Shown piece after piece: positions 2,433-49,228 of a stretch of 64,000 nt of DNA. The notes below the pieces were generated by a model that had not been told where the DNA came from, searched no databases, and saw nothing but the letters and a program-made list of their open reading frames with translations. Made by a program: the position numbers and the translations under genes. Numbering within the stretch: position 1 is the first letter of the stretch; every line of letters starts with the position of its first letter. The stretch comes from Dactylellina haptotyla (Eukaryota; Ascomycota; Orbiliomycetes; Orbiliales; Orbiliaceae): contig CM062385.1 of assembly GCA_031310005.1 (NCBI GenBank), positions 2,170,001 to 2,234,000 on the forward strand, written 5' to 3'.

Positions 2433-5400
2433 GCCGAGGTACAATTATGTATCTTTTCTCCAGTATCGTTTTTAACTGCCTTCCTGCTTGTCTTTAGTGC
2501 TTTTTCGGGGTGTGGTTCGTTTCCAGTTCGCCTAAATGTGATGTGTGTCTGAGGGACTCGGTTCCAAAAGTTGAAGAAACGCCCTGCAAATGCGCGAGAG
2601 GTTAATTATGATCGTTGCTGGAGAGGGCGATATAAAGGTGGTTTGAAGAATTGATGTAAGTAGATAGATGAATGCAAAAGACGCCTCAATGGAATTATAT
2701 AATCCGGAAATGAATTATATCGCCTTTTTTAGCCTTCCCGGATTCCTGAATTATGAAAAATATATCTCCACCCAAAAGAAAAAAGGCGAACAGACAGGAG
2801 TTGTTTGAGAACCTCAGCACTTGAAACTCTCACCATATTGTGCACAATTAGAGTAACTTCAAGGCACCAGCGTACAGATATATATCGCAGCAAATATTAT
2901 ACTCTTACTAACAATCCGTTATCAAATACACGAAAAAGAAAAGGGAAAAAATACAAATGCAAAAAATTTACTAACCTCCTCTCCTTTAACCCTGCGTGGG
3001 GTCCTCTTTCGTTCCGCGTTGAATTTTTAGGGCGGAATCCCGGTCTCAGTTCGATTTTTATGAACGATTTCGATGCAGGGGGGTCCCAGACCGGTCTAGA
3101 TCGCGGCCTTCGTTGAACACTTTTCTAGATTTGGTGATTTCATCGACGGAAGACCCTTGCCTTGCACCGACTCTGGTGACAACCTTCTTACTCTTTTTTT
3201 TCGATAGGATTGTTCAGGGATCGAAATCGAATGGGGGTAAGGGACGGGATAAATATTAATCTACGAGAGGAGAGATTTCTCCTCTTTTTCTATCCTTTTT
3301 TCCTATATTCCTTCTTTTTGAAAGAGGAGAAAAAGCTATCAACGGAAAAGGATAGCTCTATCCGTGCCGCTGGCACAGCGACGACATGGCGGGATACCGT
3401 TGGCTCGTTCAAACATGCTATGCTCGTTTCCTTTCTTATTCCTATTCTATACGATAGGGTGCGCCGGTGCTAAGCTACGGAATGGGTCCTTAAGAAGCTC
3501 GCAGATATACACATGTCTTCATGCATGTCGCTATATAGGTTCGTAGATAGGTAAGTGAGTCTGTCTAGTCTGTATGCATATATCTGTCTACTCGCGTTGC
3601 ATTAAGAGCGCACTCAACTTTGAAAGATAAGTAGCTAAAATATACTGCATCGTTGCTTTTTATAAATTAATAAAAAAGGTTCATGTGGTTTCCCGCAGGT
3701 GGGCCAGCACCCAGCGAAGGCTATTCACTAGTCTGAGGCTATTCACCGTTCATGTATAATATCGGATTCGTCTAGCTCGAACGCTCGTTTGTTCGGTTTC
3801 GCGGGACGTCTATTGGATGGAATTACATCCTACTGTACCACGGTTTCTTTTCGTCCTGTTCACGAGAGCTCATGTGCCCCATTGAAAAAGAACCCTGAAC
3901 GATTGGTACCGATATTTCCCTTGTATCATCCAACAAAAAAAGCATCTGGATTCCATAAAAAAACAAAGATGATCTTTGGAAATGCAGTTGTGGTATCTTG
4001 TCTTTCTAATCCATGGATCCAGATAAATTTGAAACTATTTGGTTGGGTAGATAAGAAATAAAATCATTTGGATATGCTCCACCACATGCACATTGCCTCA
4101 GAAATAGTTGGTGACGACTGTTACCCAAAATAATAGACCTCGTATCCTTAGTCCTCGGGTGCGCTCTCATCCAGCCAAGCCATGCTCGGTACGACTCGAG
4201 GCAAAGCCAACGGTAGCAAGAGCGAAAGAGAGAGAAAATAAAAAATAGAAAGCAGTGCTGGGCGGACGGTACAACGACTACCAGCAGCAATAGCCAACTA
4301 GACACTCTATCAGCTGATATAGTTCGCATTCGCAACTCAACTCACACAAGGGTTCCTGCACCGCTTGGACATAACACGGAACCAAAAACCAAACTCGCAG
4401 AGGTTCTCAACTAGGGTTTAGATTCCGTACCAGAGATTCCGTACCAGAGATTTCAAACCCAAGATGAGAAATGGGCAGGCATATGGCCTGTTGCAATCTT
4501 GTCTATCCCAAGAATCCTTATAATTCGTTTTGGGATGAAAGAAAGATATCTTTGCAAGCTTTGTACCACCGCCCCAAAATCAGCATATCTCATCACCCCG
4601 CCTCGAAGAAAACGATACACGAACCCCCTCAAACACAACCCGATCGATTTAGATCTGGGGAATCTGAAAGGGGAGATTGAGTTTACTATCTTGGTACTAA
4701 AATACCCGCACCGTCTGAAACTTGACATTTCTGTTGACAGGTTATCAGACGCTTTTCTTGCTCTCCTGCTTTTCTCACCGTCAATAGCAACTAGGTCCTC
4801 CCATGTTACAAGGTGAGTGGTTGTGGCGTAAAAATATGGGACGGACGGCACAACGGCACAAACGGCTACCTCTGTCAATAAATAATGTTGGATATTTTGA
4901 AACCCTAGCCTGCGGACATGGTGGATCCATGGGCCGCTGGCTGGCTGGTTGCTGTGCACGGTGTATGTTTTAGCAATTAATTGTTATCGCAAAAAATATT
5001 TAGGACCGGAGAAACGCGAATTTGTAAATATTTTTGAAGCCAATGCGTTTGGTAAATACATGTGGGTATCCGTTTCCAAGAACACCAGAAAAAAAAGGAT
5101 AAAAGATAACCGTAGAGATAAAAATGGGAATTTGCTTTTGAAGAATAGCCAGATGAACACCGATTTCCCCGTATAGAAAGCATATTCCCAAACTAGTATT
5201 GTTACATGATCCGATTCCTGGCAGCCAATATGTAATGAAAACAAGTAATCTTTTTGCCCAAGGGTATAAAACCGCTTCCAAAAACTCCCGCATAAAATGA
5301 CATCAAATAAATGCAAAAAGGGTATCCTTGTGACAATAAATAGTAACAAGATGGTGAAAACAATCAAACAAAAGTTACGCCCCGCTAGATCCAGAAAATA

Positions 5401-28090: not shown

Positions 28091-29440
28091 ATGGATGAAC
28101 CGCTCTCTCTCCAGCAGCTAATTGATAGCTCTCAGAGGCCTGCTCTCGTCCTTGACTTTCGCTTAAAACACAATCTTAAAGCCCCTTCACTCGCGACAAT
28201 AAAAGACTTGAAAGTTTCGCACAACCCAGCTTGTGAACATGGTTGGTATTCAGAGGCGTTCAAGGATCTGTTGGAACAAAATTTCGAAAAGCTGGAAGAA
28301 AGAGGAAATCGAGTGCAGGGTCCACAGGAACACGAGAGACCGCGGCATTATAATGTTGCTGGGGATGCGTGGCTATCAGTAACAGTGGGGTGTTATCATA
28401 TCTTGACGCTGGAGCCAAGCAAGGCGGCAGCAAGTTCTATCTATCCTGAGGTTGTGTCTTCGAGAGAAGACCATCTTTATAGAAGACTTAACAGCGTACG
28501 TTTCTAAGGGGACTTAGGCGAAGGATGGTATATTGATTCCGAATTTAGACACAAGGGCCCCTCGAATCATTCTCCGAGCTTAGCGACCAAGCATTGAAAG
28601 ATGCGGAAGCTGTGAGAAAAGACGTATCGCAGCTCAGCTCAGAGACTCAGCTCGACAATCAACTGGCAGAACGGATATCAGGTCGCCTACTCCAACTCGA
28701 GCTCAATCTCAGAACCATCTCATCCGGAATTTCTCTGCTCAAAGATCTTTCCGATGTGTCGGACCTCGCGCCTCCTCGCCAGAGACCCGAGTCCCGTCCT
28801 GCCGTCAGGCTCCCAGATAAGGATCTTTTGACCTCGATACGCGATCGGGTCTACGCGGGGCGCGTGCCACAGTCCACATCGCAGCCACCGTGGCCAACTG
28901 CGGTCAACTATAAACACCCTTCCGGCTTGGAAGCTTATGCACCGAGTCTTCGCCTTTTGCTTGTCGAAGATAATATAGTCAATCAAAAGCTGCTACAGAA
29001 ATATTGTCAGAAATATGGCACTCTTGAGGAATTCATCACACAGGCATTAGATGGAGCGCAAGCCTTAGAAATGATCGAACAAATGACGAGAATGGGCCAT
29101 TTCCCAGATATAATCTTTGTTGATTGCTCTATGCCAGTTCTTGATGGATATAGTTTCCTGGAAGAGTTTCGGCGACGGTGGCCCAATGCCAAATGTAGGA
29201 TTGTTGGGATGATGGCACATGCGATAATCGGTACTAATGTATAAGTTACTCTTTCCTTTGAAGTATTCTAAACGATCTTGTCAACTAACATGCTTTCCTC
29301 AATGTTAGAAACGATTCAAGGAGCTTGGTGCGCACGAAGTGCTCAATAAGCCACTTAGGTGGATGCACTTATCTGGGCAGCTTGAACTAGCTACTCGGCT
29401 TAAGATGTCACGTGAAGTAGAATTTCGAGGCAAGTTATAA
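28091..29440 (+). CDS. Response-regulator (REC) protein without kinase domain
   Basis: Protein of 408 residues from three exons: 28091-28495, 28549-29238 and 29309-29440, all joined in phase 0. The C-terminal 130 residues form a two-component receiver domain. The acidic pocket is in LLLVEDN (about residues 271-277), the phospho-acceptor Asp is at about 327 in IIFVDCSMPVLDG, and the conserved Lys is at about 379 in VLNKPLRW, encoded by the small last exon. Residues 1-270 have no HisKA or HATPase motif. They include a helical stretch around QLSSETQLDNQL. Ascomycetes normally have few stand-alone regulators (Ssk1, Skn7, Rim15-type), and this protein lacks the HSF domain of Skn7 and the kinase of Rim15. 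It may be a truncated relative of a hybrid histidine kinase or a distinct regulator. It would take phosphate from an HPt protein such as Ypd1. Confidence 0.85.
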
Positions 29441-29638: not shown

Positions 29639-31331
29639 TTACAAGTGTAAGGGGCCACCCCAAACTCTCATCTGCTTGCCGAACTTGTGAAGGATCATTA
29701 AAACACCCAAAGCTGTAGCCACAATTGCGGCTTGGACTCCGAAGCTGACATCGTATCCCGACGCGGCACCCCATGGCTGTTGGAAGTAGCCAACAGTGAA
29801 TCCACCAAGCACACGAGCGAAGTTCAAGAAACTCGAGACCTCACCAGAAGCAGTTGGGTAGGAGTCGAGAGCGTATGCGGTGATAGCCACGGACGCAATC
29901 ATGACACCGAAGACGTACATTCCCCATCCCATGACGAGAGACATGTAGTGAAGGTGCTGGGCCAATCCGAAGCCGACAATTATAAGACCAGGAATCATAA
30001 AGAAAGCGGCGATATAGTTGGTCGTCAAACGGCACTCGGGCTCGAACACACCGTTGTGACGCTTGATGTATCGATTGGCGATGAAGTCGTTGAAGTAATG
30101 ACCGAAGATTTCACCAATGGCGACAGCAACGAGAGGGGTGAAGTAGAGATAACCGACGGACTTGGCACCGAAGCCATATCCACCGGCTTCTTGGGGTGTT
30201 TCGAAGAGGATAGAGGTGGTGATATTGATACCAACAGCCCTAATATATTTGTTAGCACACTGCGCGTTTTCAACTCAGACACAAAATTAGGGAATTATTC
30301 CACTTACCACATGAAGGAAAGCATGTAGTAAATCATGATTGGGATCATGGTTGGACGGAAAAGGACTTTGAGAAGTCTCAACCAGCTGCGAGGGAAAGAA
30401 ACGAATTGAAGCGACGTATGGTTCTGAATTTGCCAGATTCCGATGACGCGCATGACGCGGTTTCCTCGAGGAACCTTCTCGGTTGCATTGCGAATATACC
30501 AGGTCTCATCAGCCCATCCGAGGATCAGAACCAAATCAAAGCAGCACAGTGCAAAGACGAGCCAGAAGACGTTTCGCCATTCGCCAGTTCCGTCGATGAT
30601 GAAGTTGCCAAGGCATGGACCGAGATATGGCGAAACCAAGAAGAGGGCCGCCCAGATACCGATCTTTCGGGCATGCTCGTGGAAGAAGAACATGTCCTTG
30701 ATGAAAGAAAGACCAATAGTTTGACAAGCGGTGAGAGTGAAGCCCATCAAGGCACGCATTCCGTAGAAGGTCTCGAAAGTGTCGGTCAAACAGCATCCCA
30801 AGGTGAAGAAGGCGCCAGCGAGAGTGGTCCAGAAGAGAACTGGGGCTCTTCCCCACCAATAGATGAACGGAATCCAGAACATGCCACCGACACCAAGCAT
30901 GATAACATTCAAGTTACCCGCATAATTGACAACGGCGGGGCTCATGTTCCACTCTTGACCTTGTTTGACGATGCATGGGATACCAGCACCGCTACCAAAG
31001 TCACCGCAGAACGCAGACAAAGCTACGATGAAAAGGATCATGTGTTTCTTGAATGGAGACCAATTGAGAGGGTCATCTGGGTCCTCGCTAGGCTGTGGAA
31101 CTAGAACAGTCTATTTCAATTGTTAATTGTCGACTTCGCTATGTTTGTTATTTAGAGTAAACTTACATGTCCATCGGCTGCAAGCTTGTAGCCGGTGTGA
31201 CCATTCTTCTCTGCATCCCCAACGTCGAGGACAACAGCGCCGAAGTGATCTTCGGCTTCACGGTCAGCGACATCTTCAATTTGGTTCATCGCGGCCTTGT
31301 TTGGTTTCTCGCGGCTATCCGTTTCCGACAT
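29639..31331 (-). CDS. MFS transporter (DHA1-like drug/metabolite exporter type)
   Basis: Major-facilitator protein of 522 residues with three exons: 31331-31167, 31110-30308 and 30239-29639. The first intron joins in phase 0 (DGH/TVLVPQ). The second bridges FM-W-AVGIN with a GTAAGT donor. The N-terminal 75 residues are hydrophilic and end in DDPLNWSPFKKH, the typical lead-in of fungal MFS proteins. About twelve hydrophobic helices follow, with the loop ACQTIGLSFIKDMFFFHEHARKIG after helix 4 and a long charged central loop near the middle. The DDPLNW lead and loop pattern fit fungal drug:H+ antiporter-like transporters of the plasma membrane. It is divergent from the VAO-type oxidase gene (1.5 kb between starts), so it may export the cluster product. 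The substrate is unknown. Confidence 0.9.
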
Positions 31332-32835
31332 TTTCGAATGTTATTATTCCCTAAACGGGATAAGAGCCAAAGTCGAAAGGGAAGAAAAGTAGAAGAAGTA
31401 GGTGTTATGTGAAATTATTTATCAACTGAGTATAGGCACCTCCTCAGATGATGATCCGGACTAGATTCGCAAGATGGATAAACCCAAAAACCAAAGATCC
31501 AGATTCCGGGGTTCGTAGACGCCCTTTATCTACTGTTCCGAAGACTTGGACTTCGGGTTCTCACCTCTTCGCCAAGATATCCTCGAACGTGCTGCCCCAG
31601 TTGACTTTCCACATACAAGTACAAGTATCTTATGAATCAACCTGTTAATATCTCCACAAATCTAAAGAAAAAGAAAGGAACGAGAAGGAAAGCAAAAAAA
31701 GTAGTCCCCACAAAACCTCCGCACTTCTCCAAATTCTTGGGGACTTCGTGAACCAGCCGGCCCATTCGGCGTGTCCTTGGGGTGCAAAGCTCTCGGCTGG
31801 AACGCTAATGATTGGCTGGTATGGGCTAAAGTTCAAACAGTAACCCAACCTCAGACACGCTCCAGTCCCTTCTCGGTTGAAATTGCTGGCATGCAATTAG
31901 TAAAAAAAAAAGTTAACCACACGCCGCCGCCATTTGGTGCTTGAGTGAGGTGGGCGCACAAGAGGGACCCGGGGAATCGCCAGAGCTACTTGACCTGGCT
32001 ATTCTCCGCGCCATACCTGCACGGTTGGTTGGTAATAGCTTAGTCCTTTGGCGGTTGCGCGAGTTGTCGACTCCACGTAAACCTCTCGCTTTCCCCAGAT
32101 TCTCGGATCGCTAGAGTGCAATTCTGGCCTATAAACCCTAAAATAAGGTTAAAATAGGTAAGGTCATGCAGGGAACTGGTCGACAGAAGCCCAATTCATA
32201 ACTTGTGAGAAGACGCAAGCTGCAGTGCAGCCAAGACTTGGTGGATCGCGCTGGTCATTGTTGGCTGTGTTCCCGGTCGTGTTTACCGAAACCACACTTC
32301 GCTTCGGATCGAGGACTTCGTGCTCTGCTGCACCCAACCTGCTGAGCTATCAAACCTGGCCCGTTTGCGCTGGGACTGAGCAAAATCACTAGCCGGACTA
32401 AAGGGTCTTCGAAGCATGGTTATTGACATTTCAAATTGATTTTTAGCGCCGGAATATACCCAGTATTCGAATGCGAGTGCCTGCAGCTTCCATGCCTGTA
32501 TTCGATTTCAACGCGAATCGGACTCCTCGTAATCCGCGTCCTCTTCGCGCCGATGGGCATTGCATTACCTCACCGCTGGACGAGCGATGGAATGAGCCAC
32601 TACCATTCGGAACGTTCTGGCGTCCCGTGATCAAGCCATAGGAGTTAAAATGCCCGATAAGTTGTATTTCATATTCTCGAAAGATTCTGTCTACTCCACC
32701 AAAAACTGTCCTTGTGATCCTGAACCAAGAGCTTTGGTACATTTGGCCCGGGGTATATCCAATTACTGGCCAGAATTCTAGAGACAAGATATAGACTTGT
32801 AGATTCAAGTTTTGAGTATTTTCAATCTATCCAAG
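31332..32835. other. Divergent promoter region, MFS / VAO oxidase
   Basis: About 1.5 kb shared upstream of a minus-strand transporter and a plus-strand oxidase. Open frames here (for example minus 32443-32808) are featureless. Shared regulation of the two genes is plausible from their arrangement only. Confidence 0.45.
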
Positions 32836-34764
32836 ATGGTCACTTCGACATCTCGCATTCCGTCGCTCGACGATAAGCACAGTGGAACCCCAGCGCGTCT
32901 TCTAGATGAAGCGAAAGTTCTCAAAGAGCGTTTATATTCCAATAAGACGCTACCCCCAAGTCAACCGCGAAGGCAGGAGACACCAGTTCTACCGCCCGAT
33001 GTCGACAGAGCGACCTTCAACAAAGCCTGGAGCGATCTAAAGAGACTTCTCGGAGACGAAAATGTTGACTTGAACGATAAACCCCTCATCGATGGGTGGT
33101 ATATGGAGCACCCGTAAGTTTTAATCTCAAAATATAGCTTTGAAAGAACCACGAACTAACAATTGGTACCAGTAATACACACGATGCATTCCATATTCTC
33201 GATCAAGAGGACCTAGTCAGCTGCGGAACTGCCTACCCCGGTTCCACAGAAGATGTTCAGAAAATTGTCAAATGGGCAAACCGCTATTTTATCCCGGTAT
33301 ATCCGATCTCAATGGGCAGAAATCTAGGATACGGCGGTGCAGCCCCCCGTCTTCGTGGATCGTTACTCGTCGACCTAGGAAAACGCATGAACAAAGTCCT
33401 CAATATCGACGGCCATAACGCCAGCTGCTTAATAGAACCCGGAGTCTCATATTTCGGACTCTACGAAGCTGTCCAAAAATCTGGCCACCCACTCTGGATC
33501 GATACACCGGATCTCGGCGGTGGCAGCGTTATGGGAAATGCTTTGGATCGCGGCGTCGGCTATACCCCGTACGGCGACCACTTCGCCAACCACTGCGGTA
33601 TGGAAATCGTTCTTCCAAATGGCGAGGTTCTTCGAACTGGTATGGGTTCGCTACCTGGCCCCAATGGTACTGACAACCCCTGCTGGCAAGCTTTCCAGCA
33701 TAATTATGGGCCATCTATGGATGGCATGTTCACACAAAGCAACTTTGGAATCGTGACAAAGATGGGGATGTGGCTGATGCCAGCCACTGGACATCAGTCG
33801 TTTATGGTTACATTCCCGCGCGATGACGACTTCGAACAGATTATCGAGATTATCAGGCCATTGGCTCTCAATCGGGTAATCGGAAATGTCCCACAGATCA
33901 GGAACGTCATTCAGGAACTCGCGGTGACAGGGAAACCACGAAGTGCGTTCTATGACAAAAAATCACCAATGCCGAGAGAAGTCATTCGCCAACATGCGAA
34001 GAAGATGCCGTTTGGAGATGTCTCCTGGTTCTTTTACGGAACGGTCTACGGAGATGATGAGACTATTGCGAAGTCACTGAAAACAATCAAGGACGCGTTT
34101 TCAAAGGTTCCAGGAATGCAATTCAAGTTGCCAAAAGAATTGCCAGCAGATCACTATCTTCAAGACAGAGTTGACGTTTGCAGTGGAAAGCCAGTTCTTA
34201 GAGAATTGGATTGGTTGAATTGGGTACCTAATGCTGCTCATTTGTTCTTTTCGCCAATTGTGCCAACGAAGGGAAGAGACGCAAGATTAGTACACGAACT
34301 TGTCACAAGCTTACACAAGAAATGGGGATTCGATTCTTTCCCAACGTAAGTCACGCGAAATCTTTATCATTTTAAATAATAAACTGAAAGCTAACAAAAT
34401 CGATAGTTGGTGTGTTCTCGGTCGCGAACTCCACTACATCGCCAACATTGTCTACGACCGCGCAGACGCAGACGCCAAGCGCCGAGCAATGGGGCTTATG
34501 CGTGAAATGATCGCTAAAGCTGCAGCAGAAGGATATGGTGAATACAGAACACATTTGATCTTCCAGGATCAAGTCGCCTCTACATATGGGTGGAATAACC
34601 AGGCATTGAACAAGTTCAACGAATGTATCAAGGACGCTATCGACCCGAACTCTATTATGGCCCCAGGCAGGAACGGCATTTGGGGACAAAGATACAAGAA
34701 TAGAGGATTCGAAATGGGCGTTGGCCAGAACGAGCAAGGTGGCTTTGCGCAGGCGAAACTTTGA
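32836..34764 (+). CDS. Vanillyl-alcohol-oxidase-type FAD-linked oxidase
   Basis: Flavin oxidase of 602 residues with three exons: 32836-33113, 33173-34345 and 34407-34764. It reads like the VAO/p-cresol methylhydroxylase family along its whole length. The FAD-binding PISMGRNLGYGGAAP segment has Tyr at about 146. GGGSVMGNALDRGVGYTPYGDH follows in two blocks, with Asp at about 228 matching the catalytic Asp of Penicillium VAO. GEYRTH has Tyr at about 530 and Arg at about 531, matching the phenol-binding pair. His at about 493 (GRELHYI) lies in the region of the covalent FAD His, but I could not fix the alignment there. The family oxidises 4-alkyl- or 4-hydroxymethyl-phenols with O2, giving H2O2. 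No signal peptide is seen; the C-terminal AKL resembles a peroxisomal PTS1 signal. It is next to an FAD monooxygenase. Confidence 0.95.
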
Positions 34765-34893
34765 ATGAAGGATGCATGAGTGGCGGCGACCAAGTGGCTT
34801 ATACTTCTGTACTTTTTCATATTTAGCTTAAAACCTGATTTTAATAATAGCAAAATCGGTCTAGAACATATAAGATATAGCCTCTCTAGCTCT

Positions 34894-34910
34894 AGGTCTT
34901 CCCTAGACCT
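34894..34910. terminator. Short hairpin 3' of the oxidase gene
   Basis: AGGTCT and AGACCT pair perfectly around a 5-base loop, about 130 bases past the stop codon, followed by a T-rich run (tctttttaca). It could mark RNA 3'-end processing. Fungal ends are not defined by hairpins, so the role is uncertain. Confidence 0.25.
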
Positions 34911-35013
34911 TCTTTTTACATACTACAACTTAGATTATGAGACTAGAGCCATTTCTAACATGGTGGAGACGACTATAGTCAATTACTTCGTCACTTCGCA
35001 GCTGAGAATGATC

Positions 35014-35029
35014 CTCTAGAGCTCTAGAG
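35014..35029. repeat. Perfect 16-bp palindrome CTCTAGAGCTCTAGAG
   Basis: The 16-mer equals its own reverse complement and is also two tandem copies of the palindromic 8-mer CTCTAGAG. A further AGCTCT follows. It lies in non-coding DNA between the two flavoenzyme genes. Confidence 0.6.
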
Positions 35030-35992
35030 CTCTTTCATTTGATGCTTCACAGCTAGAATTGGATCACGAGGTGTTTTTCGATAGCAGAACTTTGTTCTAT
35101 CCACGAAGACCATTAATTTAATAGTTAGCTAATACCGAGACCAAGCCGATTATCGGCAACTTATCGAACATAGAATCAAATACAATGTCTTAACTATATT
35201 ACCAGCTTACCTCCACGTGGATAGAGAACTCCGAACACAGAAATCGATGACCTGAACCGTGCCTTCCGCCCAAAACTTCAAATCAAAGTAACGTCGTCCT
35301 ACGGAAAATCTCCAAGCCACGCTCCCCGTAGGAGAAACCCCGAGACAGTCACAAGCATGGCAAAAGGACGTTCGATACACCCATACCCACACGTACGCAT
35401 GGCACATCCCCGCATCTAGGATTCAGAAAGCGGTCGGTGTAGCTCCCTCAAGTTCGATATTACCCCCGCATTATGGTAACGAGTTCTCCGTGCATAATCG
35501 CCTCCGGTCAACTGTTGAGAACCAATTGATAAGATTGTGACCCGCTTTTGCTTTCCTCCTGTCTTCTCCACATTTCCATAGGGACTAGGGGACCCTTGAA
35601 TGAATGAGCGTCGGTGCATGCGTGCTCGAGTATTCGTTTTTCTTTCCTTCTCCACATTTGTCAAACGGGAAATACCCACCTCGCATGTATCGGCTGAGCG
35701 TCCACTCAACCCCAGACTTTTTTCTGCTCCATGTGTATTTCCGTAAAGAGTCTTTACCGAATTTATGGCACATTATGGAGAGGTTTCGGAACATGGCATG
35801 TGAGAAATTTAATTTTCGGAGATGGCGATTTGTCCGCTCTTGTGGTTTTTAATGTCCAAAGGGTTGGGGTTGAGATGTCCATGCGATATTCATAGACGAG
35901 GGCTGAAAATACAACAGAGGTTTTGGGTTGCTAAGGTAATTGAGCTCCAAGCTACAAAGGAATAGAAAATAGAGATCTGAAATTCGACGAAA

Positions 35993-37745
35993 ATGGCGTC
36001 TAATAATCAACCAAAAGATGGTCAAACTCGAGGTAGGTTCCCATCATTCAGCTTATCTAAGCTATCAATTACTAACTCGCATGCCTAAATCACAGTCATT
36101 ATCATCGGTGCTGGTCTGGGCGGTTGTGCCGCAGCAATGGCAATGCACCACCAAGGCTTTCATGTCATCGTCTTCGAGAAGATCAAGAAATTCTTACGTT
36201 TAGGGGACTCTCTTGGTCTAGGTGAGAATGCCCTCAAGCTTCTCAGACGATGGGGTCTTCACGAGCAACTCATAAAAATCGGCAATCGAAGTCCCGATAT
36301 GAATATCAGACGATGGAGCGACGGTAAAATACTAGCGACACAGCCACTGATGGATATGGCGGGATACATTGGCCACAGAGGAGACTATCATCAAGCATTC
36401 CTCGATAGAGTGGCAGAGCTGGGGATTGACATCAAAATGGGACACACTGTGAGCGGACGCCAAATTGGATCGGCAACACTAATTTGAAGGCTAATCTTGT
36501 GGTGATCAGGTTGTTTCTTTCGACGAAGACAAGCCCTCGGTAACACTTGAAGATGGAAGAGAATTCGAGGCGGATATCATAATTGGAGCTGACGGTGAGT
36601 GGTGTCCGTGCGTATAAGCTAGAGCGCCTTCCTAATTGATGACTAAACTTAAACTTTTTCCCAGGAATTAAATCGCAAACCCGCGAGCTAGTCCTCGGCT
36701 TCGCTGACAAGCCTAAATCCTCGGGATATGCCTGTTACCGCGCCTACTTCAAAGGCGATATTCTCCGCTCGATACCCGCTTGCCAGCCAATTCTCGAGCG
36801 CGACTGCGTCAATATTTGGATTGGTCCCGATATGCACCTTGTTCAGAACACTCTTCGAGATGGCGAGGAATTCAATTGGATATTGACCCACAAGGATGAA
36901 GAAGATATCCAAGAGTCGTGGTTTCAACCAGGTGATATGACTAACGTCCGAGAATTGGTTAAAGATTGGGATCCGATGATTATTTCCGCGGTCAACGAGA
37001 CGCAGGAGTGTTTGGATTGGAAAATCTGCTATCGAGATCCAATTCCTACCTGGGTTAGCCGAAGTCACAAAATCGCATTGTTGGGAGATAGCTGCCATGC
37101 GCATCTCCCGACGAGCGCGCAGGGTGCGAGTCAGGCAACAGAGAGTGCAGCGGTGCTAGCGCTGTGCTTGAAATTGGCTGGGAAGGGGAATGTGCCGCTT
37201 GCGGTATGACATTTCTATTTATGACGTTCAAAGTTGGCGAATTGGATGAATTAGACAATGCTGACCGGATGATTTTCGCATCTTTCTTCTAGACACGAGT
37301 TTATGAGAAACTGAGGTTTGAGAGAGTGAGACAGGCTCAGTTGAACGGCGAGGACGTGAGAGACCGGTGGCATAGCTGCCTGAAGAATCTCGATGAGGGC
37401 AAGGACATCGATCCGGACGATGTCAAGATGAAGGTGCGTACCAACGTCCAGATGCGCAATGTGTTGAGTGTTATGGGAACCCTGGGAGGAACGATGTCAC
37501 TAACGAGCGAGGTCGGCCAGAACCGATGGCTATACGTTTTCGACGCAGAGCAAGACACCCTGGAGAAGTGGGACCAGGTCGCGGAATTGGCCAGGAAGGA
37601 GCTGGAAGAAGGGGTAATCACCCCACTGTTCGACAGCTCAGCAGGGCCGACGCGCGACCTCGAGCTGTACGATGCTTATGGCAATCGAAAAGCCGAAACA
37701 AAACACATACCGAAGAAACAGCAGCCGGTGACCGTGGTTCACTGA
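35993..37745 (+). CDS. FAD-dependent monooxygenase, salicylate-hydroxylase-like
   Basis: Class A flavoprotein monooxygenase of 489 residues in five exons: 35993-36032, 36096-36448, 36510-36594, 36665-37203 and 37293-37745. All junctions are GT...AG and in phase. The three family fingerprints are present: GxGxxG as IIIGAGLGGC (about residues 15-24), the DG motif as IIIGADGIKS (about 154-163), and the GD motif as LLGDSCHAHLPTSAQGAS (about 299-316). Such enzymes hydroxylate phenols or phenolic acids using NAD(P)H and O2; salicylate hydroxylase does so with loss of the carboxylate. There is no transmembrane helix. The gene sits between a VAO-type oxidase and a cluster-type transcription factor, with a type III PKS beyond, so a tailoring role on a polyphenol is a reasonable inference. 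Confidence 0.93.
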
Positions 37746-38666
37746 TGGGAATAAAGAAAGATTCCGGCCTGGGATTCGGAAGAATTGCATATTTTGCCTG
37801 CCCAATTGAAAGGCTGCCCTGCCTACCCCAAAGTGTATGAATAACATGTGCACGCTATCAACTAGTAGGGATTAATTCTAGACTGAACCGTTAGCACCAT
37901 TTCCCATGCATCGGGTATATATGATGATCTTGATATATTTGTACCTGTTAGCTGTGTAACACGCCCAATTTTCCGCGCTGCGAGTCAACCTGCAGCCTGC
38001 AATCCGAAGATGAGTGCATATATCGAGCCTCTTTGCATACAACCGCCGGGCTCAACTTCCGGATATCATGCATTCGGGTGTATCGTGAAGGTGCCTCAAA
38101 CTTCAAGTACCGGCCGTGCTTATTTGCATTTGATCAAGAAAATTCTCAAAGGGAAAACCAAGAACTAGAGTGTCGTGAAAGTAACTTTTGCTAGCCCAGG
38201 CAGCTGACCCGCCTAATGTGGGCTGGGCGCATCCCATTCGCTTCCGGTTGTGGAGAAGCGTCCAAGCTATCGCAAGGAAGCTAGAGATTCAAGTTAAATA
38301 GGCCATCTGAGGCGGGAATCCTCGTTCCGAAAACACAAAAAAGTGCCCTGATTATTAGCTCGCTCGTCCCCAGAATCTTTTGTTGTGCGTTTTTCAAACC
38401 CATCGCCATCATTGACACCCAGCGGCCTCGTGCGCAACTTTGCGAGCACGCAAGAACTCCTCGAAAAGTATCAATTAAACGGCTGATAGTGGGCTCAGAC
38501 GACATCCGACACCGAGACTTGCTGCCGGCACTGGGGAGAGAGGTCGTGTCCAAGAGGGATCGAGAGCGGCGTCGAATATGTAACCCGCCGGCACTTCACA
38601 CCGGAAAGTGGAAGGACGTTACCAACAAGAAGGAAGTCGAGTCGCGCCTGCCATCCAGCCGGACAA
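37746..38666. other. Promoter region of the transcription factor gene
   Basis: About 920 bases. No gene is supported. It contains AGCTGACCCGCC at 38202-38213; its 11-base core GCTGACCCGCC recurs 136 bases or so before the small membrane-protein gene at 44410. Confidence 0.4.
38203..38213 (+). promoter_or_regulatory. Candidate cluster motif GCTGACCCGCC, copy 1
   Basis: An exact 11-base word found upstream of the transcription factor gene and again, in the same orientation, at 44263-44273 upstream of the membrane-protein gene. I noticed only these two copies. It may be a binding site or chance. Confidence 0.2.
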
Positions 38667-41035
38667 ATGGTCGAGGTGCAGCAAATGAACAACACGGCGG
38701 CGGCACAACCGCAACAGCCAACACCGTACGTCTGCTCGCTGTGCGCAGCGCCAAAATACTTCACGAGGAAGGCGCATCTGGAACGACATATAAGAACACA
38801 TCGTAAGTGGCGTCTTTGGTGCGGGGTGATGGATCCGCATCTCGGTCTCGATCTCGAGATCTGAAGCTTGGATTCGGAAAATCCCCAGTTCCTGTCGCAT
38901 GAATAAATAGCTGATAGTGGCGTGACAATGGCCACGAGTAGACTCGGTGGGAAATCCGTTGAATTGTCACTTCTGTTCGAAGGAATTCCGTAGAAGGTAG
39001 GCTACTATTAATTATATAAACCCCGGGTAATGGCCCACTAAATTAACTTTGGTGGATTCCGAATAGCGATCTTCTCAAGGAACACCACATACGATGCGAA
39101 TTCCGCGGCGACCGTCCGATTCCTGTCGCCGTAGTTGGTCGAAAACGCCGGGCTTGTGATAGATGCTCCCAGAGAAAGATATCATGCACTGGCAAGATCC
39201 CGTGTGTGAGGTGTATGCAAGCAGGCGTGATTTGCGAGAAGACCTCTCCCGCGGATACTACCCAGCTCTGGCAAAATTCAATAAATTCAAACACTTCGAG
39301 GTCAGAAATCGATAGCTCTTTAGCAGAAGAAAGCGATGAGGAAGACGACGGCAACGGCTCGGACCCACCAGACCTCAGAGGCTCTATCGAGTATCTTCTA
39401 AACGGACAGGCGCAAGGCAACGTCGGCTTCGTACAGGTCTTCCCTATTTCTACCACTCCAGACGAAGACGACGTGACAAATATCGCCAATCCCATCTCGA
39501 CTTTACCACAAGCTGCACCGTTTGATATGGACTTTAGTATGAACTATGACGCTAGCATTCTGCCTGATATTGATTTAAACATGTTATTCGGAGAAATGGG
39601 ATACTTGATGAACATCGGATTGGAGCCGAACAGCCTATGGGATCCACATATATTCTCAGAACACTCGTCCCCAGCTACGACAACTGACCTGGACGTCTAC
39701 GATGCGCACGCTTCATTCCTACGTCCCGAACTATTCAAAGTCGTCCAGTCGTTCCAACTCGTCGAAGGATCAGTAGAGTACCAGCGCGCAATAGAAGCAG
39801 TTGAGCTAGTTACAGGCGACGTCTTACAGCGGTTTACTAATTCTTTTTTTCGACACTGGCATAAACACGGAACGATCATACATCTACCTTCATACTCACC
39901 GGGCACATGCGCCACAGTCTTGATACTGGCAATGAGTTGTATCGGCGGGCTATACGTCAAAGACCAAACTGAAATACGCAGATGCAGGAATCTACTCGAC
40001 ATTGCTGAAGTTTACATCTACGGCCGTGATTATCTTAAGGACGAATACGAGTTTTGTCAGCCATACGGTACAGGCTCACGACAAGAAGAAACCCGATCAT
40101 ACGAAGATGCCGACTGGGAAGATTTCGAGAAGCTGCAGGCGGCATATTTGATGATTGTGGTACAGACGTGGGCTGGGCATCGAGTGGCGAAGAGGAGGAT
40201 ACGACAACAACGATTCACAAGGGTTCTTGAGGTATGTATACATTTATTTATTCGACTCTATGAATACTTCCCCTGACTGGCGAGATATCGTTCTAGTTGG
40301 CGAGGCAAATCAAACTCCCATCCGCTCACCATAAACACAATCCCAAGAACGCCGAAGAATTCATGAAATGGATACGTGTGGAAACAGCTATCCGGTTACA
40401 GAATATCATGTTAACAATCGACTGCGCATTCGTCATATTCAACAATTGTCCACCCCGGATAACAGCATCGGAGATAGAGCAGCTCGATCTACCTTGCGCC
40501 TCCGCTTCCTTCTCAGCGAACTCATTCGCCCAATTGATGTCTATTCCGGCTCCTCCGGTAAGAGGAATAAAAGTAATGAAGACGCTAAGGATGTGCTTTA
40601 CATCACCATGGGCTTCCGTACCAGAGTTGAATACATTAGATCTCTTTGTCCTTGTTCATGGTACGTCATATTCGACAGATAAACCCCATAATTCCCCTAG
40701 TTCATGCAATTAACTGGGTAATAGTTCTCTACGTTATCATAACTCAAGATCTCTCATCACAAATCGAACCTTCCCCCGCCGCCCTCGCAGCAATGAAGCA
40801 AGGAATAGATTTCTGGATGAAATCCTGGAACGCAGCAAGAAATCGGTATTCGGATAACGACTGGAAAACCCTCGGGTTAGAGAGAACAAGCGATAGATAT
40901 TGGGTTCTTGTCAAAGCGGTGTTTTTAGCTTTCGAGAAGGACATCAAAGAAGGTAGAAGAATGTTGCTCGGGTTTAGGAGCGACATCGACGAGAGTGGAT
41001 CACATTTGAAGGAGTTTTTGGCGAAACGGAAATAA
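38667..41035 (+). CDS. Dual C2H2 / Zn2Cys6 fungal transcription factor
   Basis: Model of 676 residues, five exons: 38667-38802, 38942-38996, 39067-40231, 40297-40660 and 40725-41035. The first finger is YVCSLC...HLERHIRTH (Cys 23, 26; His 41, 45, with a Cys-His gap two longer than the consensus). The second, CHFC...DLLKEHHIRC, is split by an intron and of C2HC type (about residues 54-74). A Zn2Cys6 cluster follows at about 94-120 with exact spacing C-x2-C-x6-C-x5-C-x2-C-x6-C. An acidic Ser/Glu region comes next, then a C-terminal part typical of the fungal-specific TF domain (EFMKWIRVETAIR, LPCASASFS). The tiny 55-base exon 2 and the last acceptor (another AG lies 24 bases upstream) are the least certain parts. 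This TF type commonly regulates nearby secondary-metabolite genes. Position argues it controls the PKS and flavoenzymes here. Confidence 0.85.
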
Positions 41036-41405
41036 GCAAACGCACAGAAAAGTTATACATTATTTTGGAAAGCATAACGGCGGGAATCTGGTTTTGATAT
41101 TCTTTATTTTTTTTTGACGAGCATACCGGAATTTTGTTTTGGAACTCTTTTGCGTTTGTACATGTATATCAGTGCTTTGTGAGTTCAGGATACCAGGTCA
41201 TGTTATTTAACATTTATAACGCCATAAGAAAATACAGGAAATATACTAAAAAAATATGAAACGATGAAAAATTAAAAAAGGATGAGTATACCGTCTATCG
41301 TAGGTATCTTCAATGGACTCTAGAACCAAAAGGAACCAAGAACGCAATATAAGCAGCCGCGAGTGACGTACTGATTTTTGTTGCGCGAAAGGGAGAGCGA
41401 ATAAT
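41036..41405. other. Short gap between convergent TF and PKS genes
   Basis: 370 bases between two 3' ends, AT-rich. Nothing was seen besides probable 3' untranslated regions. Confidence 0.5.
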
Positions 41406-43039
41406 CTAGTCTAACTCCTCTCCACCAACCTGAACCTCATGGACACCGTTGGTAATTTCAACTACGCCGTTTTCTAATACACCGTCTAGTTTGTCACCAC
41501 TAGGCTCTACCCTCTTCATAAGCATCATTTCTATGCTGACCCCTGGGCCGAAAGCACATCCGAGTACACCTTTCCTGCCGCCCTTGATTCCGAACCCGGG
41601 GCCATACGTTGGTCCTTCTCCGGCAATACCCGCTTCCGTGTCGCTTCTCAGTCTATCCATGACGCTGAAAATAGTGGCTGAACTGGAGTTTCCATAGTTG
41701 GTGTATACCTCGAAAGAGGATCTGAGATTCGATACTGATATGTTCATTTTCTCTGATACCCCTGTCAGAATAAGTGATCCGCCTGGATGCAGGGCCCAAT
41801 CCAGATCTTCAGGTTTTAGCGAGGAATTAGATGATGAGAGTGATGATAATACTGAGGGCGATATTGAGGAAAGGAGTGATTTATAGATGGTTGGTGTGAC
41901 CTCGGATGTCAGCTTTGGGACTCTGGGCGTCAGAATAACTTTCCACCCTTTAAAGAAACTAACATTAGCAATTTTTCTTCAAAAACTTTCTCGAACGGCC
42001 GAATATTGAGTTTTACCTAACGGGTCGATATCAAATCCTAGATCCTTTTCAGTCTTTTCGACGGTATCATGCTTCCAACCTAATATGTCATATAAACCCT
42101 TCCCGCTCTTACTCCAATCCTCTCCAACGCCGTTACTAACAACCGCAGCGCTACTGCAGTCGCTAAACAGCGTAATCCCAATCCTGACATTATTCTCCGC
42201 CAGAATACTGTCCAGCTCGCTCCTTACCAAAACCGTGCAAATCTCCGTCGCACACACTAAAATTCTCGCCCGGCGTCCTCTCGCCTTGGCCCCCAACGCA
42301 ATATTACAAGCGGTCCTCAGTCCCGCCAGGCCGCCAGAGCACCCAACACCGTGTAACAGCACCTTCTCCACGGTATTCTTCACCCCGAGATTCTTGAGCA
42401 CGAAGATATCGTACCCGGGATTCGCGCTGTCCGTGCAGGTGGTAAATACGGTGTGTGTGATTGCTGACGGGGTGTATCCTGCGTCCTGGATCGCTTTGCC
42501 ACAAGCCGATGTGGCGAGCGAAACGCCGTGTTCCATGAAGAGTTCGTGGAGTTGGTCTATTTTCGGGGCGGCTTCTTGGTTTGCGAGTGGATGCATGCAT
42601 TCGCCGACTGACCGGCGGGCTTCGATTCCTGTGAAGCGGTTTATCGAAAGCACTTTTTTGATACTAGAGATTCACGATTGGGATTCTACATTAGTTTTCC
42701 GTTTGGTACAAGTTTTACTTCTATGAATTCGGGGTTTACTGACGATTCGGTTTGTGGATAGTGTTTTTGAGCTATAGTTTCCAGGTCCTTTGGGACGACT
42801 TTGTGAGGAGGGTATTCCACACCAATGCCCATGACACGGAGGTTCATATCTTCGGGAAACATCTCGTGCTCTTCCTCCTCTTCATCGGGTACCGTGGCAT
42901 CATGAGTACCATTAGAGACGCCATTGGCAGCGCCGTTAGCGCCATTGGTATCGCCGTTCGTGTAGGCACCGTTCGTGTGACCATTCATTGCGCCGCCATT
43001 TTCGACAGCACCACCGTTAATGATCTCCAGCGGGGCCAT
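41406..43039 (-). CDS. Type III polyketide synthase (chalcone/stilbene synthase family)
   Basis: Core enzyme of the putative cluster: 494 residues from exons 43039-42744, 42663-42017 and 41947-41406. Phases join to give TESIKKVLSINRFTGIE and PLGWKVILTPRV. The catalytic triad is in place: Cys at about 207 (HGVGCSGG), His at about 368 (DWALHPGG) and Asn at about 401 (TNYGNSSS). The family loads an acyl-CoA starter on the Cys and extends it with malonyl-CoA, without an acyl carrier protein, to give alkylresorcinols, resorcylic acids or pyrones. Compared with the usual 390-420 residues, this one has about 70 extra residues at the front, rich in Asn-Gly (NGHTNGAYTNGDTNG) then Glu, probably disordered. 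Chain length and cyclisation mode cannot be read. It is convergent with the transcription factor gene and divergent from the membrane-protein gene. Confidence 0.95.
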
Positions 43040-43899
43040 GGTGGTAGTCTACTTCCGCCGTGAAGAGTTTCGGGGTTGCGCGTTCACTGTGGGAGGCAGC
43101 TCCGCTGTTCGCACATGCGACGCCCGGGATCTCAGCTATAGTGGGGGCGGGGCGGTTGTGTTGAATTCAACGAAAACAGCCAGGAAGGAAGCAAGAACAA
43201 AAAGCTGAGAAGGTTCGAAAAAACTCCAATTGGACAGCGAAGGACGAAGGAGAGCTCGATTGAGAGACAATTCTGTAAAGTGAGAGAAGCCAATGACGGG
43301 AGACACCCAGCTCTTTAAGTAATCGGTGCCCTGGAGCCGTACATGCAATGGGGTTTCAACCCGTGAACCTGCTACGACGACAATCCTGGAAGTGGCCATG
43401 GCGAGCCCGGGCCCTCGGTCAAGATGGAGCGCATGCACATGCTCGCGAGAGTGCGCAATGCCATGGCGCCCAGGGTATCGATAAGTTTTTTTTGTAAGCG
43501 ATTTAATGCTTCTATTCCCTGATATATGACCGTCGCGTCGGCTGATATCGCGACGTAATACGGCTGAAAAAACAGCACTGAGAATACGCCAAAATATCAA
43601 TTGATATAGATTATTTACCTCGCTATAGATGCTTACTTGCTAGAGGTAGAGCTGAAGCAGGAGTAGCACTTGAAGCAGCATTCAGATGGAGCAGTATCCT
43701 ACGCAATCCCCACTTTTCGCGGCCTGGAGCTGGGAATTTGGATGGACATGCGTTATCGTGGTTGAGCCAATAAACTGGCTGCCAATTGTGGATTAGGCCC
43801 GTTTCCCAACAGGCTCCCCATTGGTCGCTATAATGCTTCCGGTGCCTCCATGATATCATGAGCCAGTCAGCGACATACGTCTAGATTTTTTTGGCCCTT

Positions 43900-43916
43900 T
43901 CCGACCGTAAGTCGGA
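43900..43916. promoter_or_regulatory. Candidate operator TCCGAC-N5-GTCGGA
   Basis: A perfect 6+6 inverted repeat with a 5-base spacer, in the divergent promoter between the type III PKS and the small membrane protein. It contains an everted CCG...CGG pair, a layout bound by some Zn2Cys6 dimers. Function is inferred only from symmetry and place. Confidence 0.3.
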
Positions 43917-44262
43917 CGAATCCAAGCGACAGGTCAGAGACGGTAGCTGGTTGTTGATTGCGAGTTCGAGCGCGATCACCCGGTTCCACGAGATCCAATC
44001 GGCCTGCGGGAGGGGGTTTTAACGACTCCATGCACATGTCTCAGGGGTAATCAAGCCTCGTCTGATGAGGAAATCCGTCTCGTCGACGCATCGATGCCCT
44101 GACAGCCAGCCGACTGGCCGCGCCGTTTGACGTACAGCCCATCTACCGAATGGAGGAGGGGTCATGCAGCCGGCTGACAGGACGCTTGCCACAAAATCAA
44201 CACATCGCCAATCCGCCTTGCGAACTTGCAATTGCAAATACTCTCTACCTACGCTTCCTTTC

Positions 44263-44273
44263 GGCTGACCCGC
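44263..44273 (+). promoter_or_regulatory. Candidate cluster motif GCTGACCCGCC, copy 2
   Basis: Exact match to the 11-base word at 38203-38213, located about 137 bases upstream of the membrane-protein start codon. Confidence 0.2.
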
Positions 44274-44409
44274 CGACGCTGCCAGCGCTTAGCTCGACTT
44301 AGGGCTAGATAGTGTATATCCACTGGGATTCGAGATACGCGTCAGCTCGCCCGTAGGGCCGCCGTAGTCCCCTCGGTGTCCGATTGTCCATCGTTTGTGA
44401 TCATTCGAC

Positions 44410-44895
44410 ATGGCCATCCTGATCCCCTTCCTGCTCCATTCGCTGCTCGAGCTTCCTCCGTCTTTCATGCTCCTATTTTCACCTCTCTCCTTTATACCGC
44501 CGCTTCCACAAACTGCGCGCCAAGAGGGCAGTGGAGCGATACCTTCAAAACCGGAGGCTGATCTGAATGCCGCGCTTATACCGATTTTCCGCCAATACGG
44601 CGCGATTCTCTTATCATCCTCAATATTCTCGTTCTTACTCTCGATAACTCCTAACGAATGGGTGCTGTCACCTGCTGTGGGTACTATCAGCGGGAACTGG
44701 ACTGTTCACGAGGTATCGGCTTTAGCATTGGCTGGTTATCATGTCTTGACGGTGAATAGAGCCTACGGCCGTATTACCGCTGGCGAAACGCCTTTCGTGA
44801 TTGGAAATAAGAGACTGGGCGGGCCAGGTTTACACGTGATAATGCACACCGTGGTCGGGTCGCTATTAATTTGGTACGGGATCACTGGCTTTTAA
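44410..44895 (+). CDS. Small integral membrane protein, function unknown
   Basis: Intronless frame of 161 residues with a clean ATG. There are about four hydrophobic segments: residues 1-32 (LIPFLLHSLLELPPSFM...), about 60-80 (YGAILLSSSIFSFLLS), about 95-112 and about 143-160 (HVIMHTVVGSLLIWYG). Polar links between them include a Gly-rich GNKRLGGPG turn. No catalytic motif or known family is recognised. It is divergent from the type III PKS, so it could share its promoter. Possible roles include substrate channelling in the endoplasmic reticulum membrane, or an enzyme of an uncharacterised integral-membrane family. These are guesses. The reading frame itself looks real because of the ordered hydrophobic pattern and end-to-end openness. 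Confidence 0.7.
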   Translation: MAILIPFLLHSLLELPPSFMLLFSPLSFIPPLPQTARQEGSGAIPSKPEADLNAALIPIFRQYGAILLSSSIFSFLLSITPNEWVLSPAVGTISGNWTVHEVSALALAGYHVLTVNRAYGRITAGETPFVIGNKRLGGPGLHVIMHTVVGSLLIWYGITGF

Positions 44896-47885: not shown

Positions 47886-49031
47886 ATGTTTCGTCACCCA
47901 TTGAAGCTCCTCTTCCGCCCTACCTTCGCTGCCACTCGAACTCTGCCCCTCCAACCCCTCGGTACTCATCGAGGAACCCGGTATCCCCTTGTTGCCGTCT
48001 CGCATATCCGCACAATGGCAAGCTGGAAGAATCTCATTCGATTCATCGCCGAGGAAGACGGCCAGGAACACCTTGGAGACGTGGATGCAAGCCAGTTTCC
48101 GGATGTCGGAGTAGCCATTCACGATGGCTTGAAAGTCACCGCTAAGGTCGTTAATGGGTCCGTCTTTGACGGAACGGTGACCGACCAAACTCTCACCGTC
48201 AATAGGGTGCGTAGAAAATAGAATAAGATATCATACGAATAAATAAACGACATGTGTAAACTGATAACTGGCTGGCAATGCTACAGCTCCTCTCGCCAAT
48301 CTCTCAACCCGACGTCCCCATAATCCGCTGTCTCGGACTCAACTACCGCGACCATGCCCACGAAGCCAAGATGCCCATCCCGAACGAGCCAGTTCTCTTC
48401 ATCAAGCCTCGGACATCCCTAACCGGTCCGCACCCTGCCAAGATCGTAGTCCCCAAAGCGGTGCAGGACGGCACCAGCGACTATGAAGCCGAGCTCACCA
48501 TCATCATCAGTAAAACCGGCAAGGACATCCCCAAGGAGAAAGCTCTAGACTACGTCCTCGGTTACACCGCAGGGAACGATGTTAGTTCTCGCAAATCGCA
48601 GTTTCAGAACAGCCAGTGGAGCTACAGCAAGGGCTTTGACACGGCTGCTCCTGTCGGCCCTGTTATCGTACGCGAGGGAGCTCTGGATCCGCATGCGCTG
48701 GCTATCAAGGCCATATACAACGGCCAGACAGTCCAGGACAGTAACACTAAGGAGATGATATTTAGCGTGCAGGAGACGGTGGCGTTCTTATCCAGGGGTA
48801 CGACCTTAGAAAAGGGAACGCTAATCATGACCGGAACGCCACCTGGGATTGGAGCGATGAGGGAACCAAAGATCATCCTGGGCGACGGAGACGATATCAG
48901 AGTTTATATCCAGGGTATCGGTAAGTTTTTTTCCACTTCCCCGGTTTCAAAATTGTTCCTAGGGCTTTTAGGGCTTGTGCTAATTCTCAGCCGCAGGTAC
49001 ACTGATAAACAAGGTTCATTACGAGAAATAA
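47886..49031 (+). CDS. Fumarylacetoacetate-hydrolase family protein
   Basis: FAH-superfamily protein of 329 residues from exons 47886-48206, 48287-48920 and 48997-49031. The last exon is tiny but gives the conserved end IQGIGTLINKVHYEK. Family marks are IIRCLGLNYRDHA, FIKPRTSLTGP, the metal-ligand segment DYEAELT (about residues 172-178), GYTAGNDVSSR and GTLIMTGTPPGIG. These enzymes hydrolyse or decarboxylate beta-diketo acids (acylpyruvase, oxaloacetate decarboxylase types) using Mg2+. The first 43 residues are basic and free of acids (FRHPLKLLFRPTFAATRTLPL), like a mitochondrial presequence. A second ATG (MASWKNLIRF) would give a cytosolic form. A fungal catabolic or mitochondrial oxaloacetate role is more likely than membership of the polyketide cluster. 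Confidence 0.9.
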
Positions 49032-49228
49032 AGATTATAGTCTTATTGTAAGTATGAACGAGTGGATAAGCGTAAAGCTTGGGTCTATTCTATAGATCTA
49101 GATGGTATCATAGCGAGTGTAAAGGATATCTAAATAAAAAGTTTTATATACAAGAATTGAATAGTAAATAAGAAAATATATGTTTTAGATTAACGAGTGT
49201 ATGAATGTAACAAAAATATATCTGTCTC

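Follow-up and report, generated by a model that had tools for sequence, protein, structure and literature searches.

Does a type III polyketide synthase (T3PKS) that sits beside two flavoenzymes, a regulator and a transporter act with them in one pathway? This question is raised by a locus of the nematode-trapping fungus Dactylellina haptotyla (contig CM062385.1, positions 2,170,001 to 2,234,000; this whole stretch of 64,000 nucleotides is referred to as the window), for which a reading made from the sequence alone had proposed a single T3PKS pathway to an oxidised phenol or quinone. Our comparison with other fungi indicates that the locus probably comprises two adjoining units: a widespread phenol-processing module built on a VAO-type oxidase and an FAD-dependent aromatic monooxygenase (FMO), and a T3PKS whose product this module does not need.

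Contig linkage of VAO, FMO and T3PKS genes in fungi

Homologue searches were carried out with the T3PKS, VAO and FMO proteins, and the best 120 rows of each were used. Each row is a cluster at 90% identity whose contig is that of the longest of the cluster, many contigs being only a few kb in size, and rows whose source contigs have an identical size were taken to lie on the same contig. By this measure VAO and FMO share a contig in 25 pairs, 24 of which come from Ascomycota and Basidiomycota outside Orbiliomycetes. Eight of the ten pairs that are numbered in both names are consecutive, among them that of A. multicolor, which uses JGI-style numbers. None of the 25 contigs matches the contig of a listed T3PKS row. 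T3PKS lies on the contig of a VAO or FMO in 5 of the 11 rows assigned to Orbiliomycetes and in 0 of the 109 other rows: it accompanies VAO in D. haptotyla CBS 200.50, D. cionopaga, Dactylella cylindrospora and Orbilia brochopaga, and FMO in O. javanica. Because VAO–FMO pairs occur across fungi and T3PKS linkage is seen in Orbiliomycetes only, we interpret the locus as a phenol module with a lineage-specific PKS neighbour. The linkage pattern fits a phenol-processing pair better than a pair of T3PKS tailoring enzymes, and a T3PKS adjoining VAO and FMO appears so far only in Orbiliomycetes. The sequence-only reading had named conserved order in relatives as support for its pathway. It is partly supported, through contigs that carry a T3PKS together with VAO or FMO in five Orbiliomycetes; elsewhere VAO and FMO pair up without a listed T3PKS.

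In D. haptotyla CBS 200.50, no FMO row is found among the matches listed, and only the tag H072_2364 separates T3PKS from VAO where the window has two genes; both observations would follow, we guess, if the gene models had been fused into one too long for the length filter. The three T3PKS–VAO pairs with ABW19, ABW20 and ABW21 tags, those of the other Orbiliomycetes with VAO linkage, carry numbers 1,583 to 3,240 apart, in a numbering that may not follow gene order. The six other Orbiliomycete T3PKS rows have no VAO or FMO on their contig among the matches listed, where such partners may be hidden in the 90% clusters. Different contigs carry the T3PKS and the VAO of Thozetella sp. PMI_491 and Lasiosphaeris hirsuta (single-member rows), and the same holds for Coniochaeta hoffmannii, Leptodontidium sp. 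2 PMI_412 and Exophiala xenobiotica (multi-member rows).

Trees of VAO and FMO were built from hand-picked close matches (39 and 42 of the 120 rows, respectively); they are unrooted, and their class labels were assigned by hand, the label of Elasticomyces (EUR) being doubtful. The VAO of Orbiliomycetes groups with those of three Pezizomycetes (SH-aLRT 81), next to which come Gloeophyllum, Heliocybe and Jaapia (93); Rhizina, a fourth Pezizomycete, lies outside. In the FMO tree, one group (99) holds Orbiliomycetes, Jaapia, Gloeophyllum, Wilcoxina, two yeasts and five Eurotiales (Paecilomyces, Rasamsonia, Thermomyces and two Talaromyces), apart from Aspergillus. Transfer of the VAO–FMO pair between phyla is possible.

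The basidiomycetes Gloeophyllum trabeum and Jaapia argillacea each have VAO and FMO on a shared contig (P0126, P0127, P0243, P0247). Both are among the species listed closest to the Orbiliomycete proteins (75% and 71% for VAO, 69% and 73% for FMO), a closeness that may point to such a transfer.

Gene models of the locus

The six genes that the sequence-only reading had placed side by side within about 15 kb are all present at 29639-44895 with open models, and their predicted identities were right where Pfam speaks to them. Models were spliced by hand with GT-AG introns, and each is open from start to stop.

29639..31331, minus strand: MFS transporter (MFS_1), divergent from the VAO gene; 3 exons, 522 aa; splice model and Pfam
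31332..32835, no strand: divergent intergenic region between the MFS and VAO genes, 1504 bp
32836..34764, plus strand: VAO-type 4-phenol oxidase; 3 exons, 602 aa; splice model, Pfam and residue mapping
35993..37745, plus strand: FAD-dependent aromatic monooxygenase, FMO (FAD_binding_3); 6 exons, 460 aa
38667..41035, plus strand: transcription factor with two C2H2 fingers and a Zn2Cys6 cluster; 5 exons, 684 aa; fingers by eye
41406..43039, minus strand: type III PKS (T3PKS); 3 exons, 494 aa; Cys207-His368-Asn401; convergent with the factor
44410..44895, plus strand: small protein, 161 aa; moderately hydrophobic; divergent from the T3PKS

The T3PKS, VAO and FMO models were checked on relatives, the MFS, factor and small-protein models being products of hand splicing alone. 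In D. haptotyla CBS 200.50 the counterparts of T3PKS and VAO, H072_2363 and H072_2365, have the same lengths as our models and share 97% and 99% identity with them, respectively. The 3′-proximal in-frame intron of FMO was placed after two annotated Orbiliomycete orthologues (P0241, P0242); the Pfam, single-sequence structure, own-genome and homologue searches used a 5-exon, 489-aa FMO model without that intron. Pfam matches over the cut-off are MFS_1, FAD_binding_4 with FAD-oxidase_C (VAO), FAD_binding_3 (FMO), Zn_clus (factor) and both chalcone/stilbene synthase domains (T3PKS), in agreement with the five identities first assigned. Once spliced, the factor shows by eye two C2H2 fingers preceding its Zn2Cys6 cluster, and zf-H2C2_2 and Fungal_trans reach it only as matches below the cut-off. 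Among solved structures the MFS protein matches just one, 2gfp (Multidrug resistance protein D; E 2e-5). The small protein had been called a membrane protein: the gene exists, and its membrane nature is borderline, given that the Pfam search matches no family and that no window of a 19-residue hydropathy scan exceeds 1.6.

Pairs of CGG/CCG half-sites were compared among four intergenic regions. Six spacings are shared by at least three regions (shuffle mean 4.96; six was reached in 70 of 200 shuffles) and none by all four (shuffle mean 0.455); Zn2Cys6-type site pairs were consequently rejected as evidence of co-regulation, the shared spacings being at shuffle level.

Outside the six genes, an open reading frame with a response-regulator domain (PF00072) adjoins the MFS gene at 28549-29244, and a gene of the fumarylacetoacetate-hydrolase family, a type also met in aromatic catabolism, lies at 48260-49051 (E 2.5e-62), about 3.4 kb past the small protein and beyond an RNase T2 gene.

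Active site of the VAO-type oxidase

The window VAO keeps Y108, D170, Y503 and R504 (PsVAO numbering, used throughout), the phenolate-binding and catalytic residues of the family, together with the FAD-linking H422. D170, H422, Y503 and R504 are found in all 120 best listed relatives and Y108 in 119 of them. Elsewhere the protein has F61, Q316, R409, F424, C459 and N470, and the region of the octamerization loop counts 20 residues instead of the 31 of PsVAO. This short form is general among the best 120 listed relatives (20 residues in 119, 45 in one), as are N470 (110/120) and F424 (111/120). In the 25 VAOs linked to an FMO, N470, F424 and Q316 each occur in 24 (the remaining one has a gap at 470) and C459 in 22. 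The genome search returned one further VAO-like match, on contig C3 at 30% identity, and a second close VAO paralogue was thereby ruled out as an explanation of the locus.

The monooxygenase and a putative downstream route

FMO belongs to a family whose members are 58-95% identical to the O. javanica protein (29 chosen rows). Its best solved match, in single-sequence and profile searches alike, is 8x38, a decarboxylative vanillate 1-hydroxylase; 8gsm ranks second in the single-sequence search and sixth in the profile search, where CtdE comes second. FMO-like places elsewhere in the genome are just 25-36% identical, and such paralogues were ruled out as an explanation of the locus.

In VAO catalysis, a phenol with a para substituent is oxidised at the benzylic position via a quinone methide. 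In the module that we favour, VAO would use O2 to oxidise such a para-substituted phenol at its benzylic carbon, releasing H2O2 and an aldehyde or ketone, which could be oxidised further to an acid. FMO would then hydroxylate the ring, possibly at the carboxyl-bearing carbon with loss of CO2, to give a hydroquinone whose ring could then be cleaved. Transport of the module's substrate is probably the task of the MFS protein, and the C2H2/Zn2Cys6 factor probably activates the module; these substrates, the decarboxylation and both roles are inferred.

Two genes of the homogentisate-dioxygenase type are present in the genome. One lies on contig C5 among fumarylacetoacetate-hydrolase (FAH), maleylacetoacetate-isomerase and HPPD-like genes, as judged by eye from translated open reading frames. 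The other (C7:3464149-3465007) stands outside this tyrosine-type cluster and is a possible candidate for a methoxyhydroquinone dioxygenase. That it could open a hydroquinone ring is suggestive, and we do not use it as proof. An intradiol dioxygenase domain is matched, weakly, at one place in the genome.

The type III polyketide synthase

T3PKS matches both domains of its family (PF00195, E 9.9e-23; PF02797, E 1.8e-17), and the N-terminal domain finds one T3PKS place in the whole genome. The triad C207, H368 and N401 is identical in all 29 aligned rows, that is, the query and 28 hand-picked from the best 120 listed. The best solved relatives are 3e1h, 3euo and 3eut (E 1.3e-124 over residues 63-460), which we take to be Neurospora crassa ORAS, or PKSIIINc. 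Fungal T3PKSs make alkylresorcinols, resorcylic acids or pyrones, and from an ORAS-like enzyme a 5-alkylresorcinol would be expected. Judged on its likeness to ORAS, T3PKS is of the ORAS type, and would accordingly be placed in clade 1. A tree of the same 29 rows, with class labels likewise assigned by hand, gathers the query and the 11 other Orbiliomycete sequences in a single group of 12 (SH-aLRT 100), separate from the 17 rows that represent Leotio-, Sordario-, Lecanoro- and Eurotiomycetes. The Orbiliomycete proteins also carry a longer N-terminal extension, with Asn/Gly repeats and a Glu-rich part, of 64-93 aa versus 9-22 aa in the 17 others; that of the window protein is 64 aa long (42848-43039).

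Type III PKSs are present in nearly all Orbiliomycete genomes (PMC6985275). Deletion of the Arthrobotrys oligospora type III PKS gene AOL_s00043g287 left HPLC and GC-MS profiles as in the wild type (PMC5930339); we take this gene as the orthologue because that report describes one type III PKS. The published RNA-seq study of D. haptotyla names neither T3PKS nor type III in its main text (PMC10580851). Literature searches found no paper for the A. oligospora neighbour tags and no published report of this locus or of the VAO–FMO partnership, subscription journals being mostly outside the search.

One cluster or adjoining units

A single cluster would explain why the six genes adjoin and why five relatives among the Orbiliomycetes have a T3PKS on the contig of a VAO or FMO. 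T3PKS would make an alkylresorcinol or resorcylic acid, FMO would hydroxylate it and might also decarboxylate it to an alkyl hydroxyhydroquinone, VAO would oxidise it further, the factor would regulate the genes and the MFS protein would export the product; FAD_binding_3 (PF01494), MFS and Zn2Cys6 domains are indeed frequent at fungal T3PKS loci (PMC6985275). We nevertheless consider such a pathway unlikely. VAO requires a carbon para to the phenol hydroxyl, and a 5-alkylresorcinol, whose alkyl chain is meta to both hydroxyls, has none and is thus an unlikely substrate. The 25 VAO–FMO contigs without a listed T3PKS, the 109 other listed T3PKS rows without VAO or FMO on their contig and the silent A. 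oligospora deletion argue in the same direction, as does the absence of shared regulatory-site enrichment in the four intergenic regions. What survives of the pathway first proposed is the linkage within Orbiliomycetes; VAO–FMO pairs without a listed T3PKS and the lack of shared site pairs speak against the rest. The factor, perhaps with the small protein, might instead form a minimal unit with T3PKS, next to a separate phenol module of the MFS, VAO and FMO genes. The factor and T3PKS genes converge, with 370 bp between them, and P450 and transcription factor domains are frequent beside clade 1 T3PKSs (PMC6985275), but the factor shares its orientation with VAO and FMO, and we find this grouping improbable.

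We favour a phenol module beside an ORAS-type T3PKS that would be an old Orbiliomycete gene, its product unneeded by the module. Several points weigh against this interpretation. Two of the numbered VAO–FMO pairs (A. aurantiobrunneus and A. californicus) are not consecutive, 15 pairs are not numbered in both names and contig sharing gives them no distance, and the other 95 of the 120 listed VAO rows showed no partner by this measure. Within Orbiliomycetes, linked T3PKS tags are only two apart (H072_2363/2365; TWF718_005843/005841 in O. javanica), and a shared role of T3PKS with VAO and FMO is possible given this linkage. The 109 other T3PKS rows include P0012-P0014 (63-68% identity, contigs under 7 kb), which may be Orbiliomycete, and missing linkage is weak evidence because it is drawn from the best 120 rows, 90% clusters and short contigs. 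The profile lead of 8x38 over CtdE is small (258.8 versus 248.9 bits), which makes the decarboxylating step weak. The silent A. oligospora deletion may reflect a lack of expression, and the orthology of the gene is presumed.

A bolder proposal, which we hold tentatively and regard as rather doubtful, is that a subgroup of loop-less Q316/N470 VAOs and their linked FMO constitute an undescribed two-enzyme route across Dikarya, spread partly by inter-phylum transfer, which would act on a phenol whose para side chain is polar and which came to lie beside a T3PKS in Orbiliomycetes. If true, the link to FMO would give these VAOs the class of natural substrate that they still lack. The low activities of loop-less VAOs may hint at other natural substrates (PMC12909556). 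A partner FMO conserved across two phyla makes this substrate question testable by assay. The neighbourhood in a single genome would be called a new T3PKS cluster, and the comparison illustrates how this can mislead genome mining. The more useful outcome is that VAO is linked to FMO, and this linkage, with the unusual active site of the VAO, is the lead worth following.

Comparison with known systems

T3PKS keeps the Cys, His and Asn of the N. crassa ORAS triad, and differs in the 64-93 residues that precede the core in Orbiliomycetes. VAO is identical to Penicillium simplicissimum VAO (1ahu) at 244 of 528 aligned residues and has Y108, D170, H422, T457, Y503 and R504 in common with it, but lacks the octamerization loop and carries the changes H61F, L316Q, D409R, T459C and C470N. 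TpVAO, a name from which we guess the source to be Trematosphaeria pertusa, is of interest here: that species has an F424/N470 protein (P0190) among the matches listed. The loop marks the first VAO subfamily (C1-C6), to which the loop-less window protein does not belong, and is absent from clade C7 of the second subfamily (PvVAO and others), where Q316 and C459 prevail (PMC12909556). The window VAO resembles clade C7 in lacking the loop, in Q316 and C459, and in R409, which fits the Arg permitted at the Asp numbered D408 in that text and 409 in our mapping; F61 is as in the neighbouring clade C6. It departs from the clade C7 description in F424 (Ala/Gly) and N470 (Glu/Tyr/Cys). Phe424 with Asn470 is not described for clade C7, and a word search of sections 3.1 and 4 of the same text returned no asparagine (PMC12909556). 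Clade C7, of which TpVAO is a member that was not produced (PMC12909556), may include the F424/N470 group, the comparison being with the text of that paper. A loop-less VAO combining Q316, F424, C459 and N470 is not found in the VAO-clade text compared, and this VAO is tied to an FMO family conserved across Dikarya.

FMO is distant from the decarboxylative vanillate 1-hydroxylase 8x38, though this is its best match. Gluck-Thaler and Slot (2018) are reportedly the source of VAO-anchored degradative gene clusters. This class of clusters is enriched in genomes of soil-dwelling saprotrophs (PMC10735191), and the window module, likewise centred on a VAO, is likened to it by description. VhyA of A. 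niger is a vanillate hydroxylase that yields a hydroquinone (PMC8336404), and the window FMO may be compared to it in the same manner, by description.
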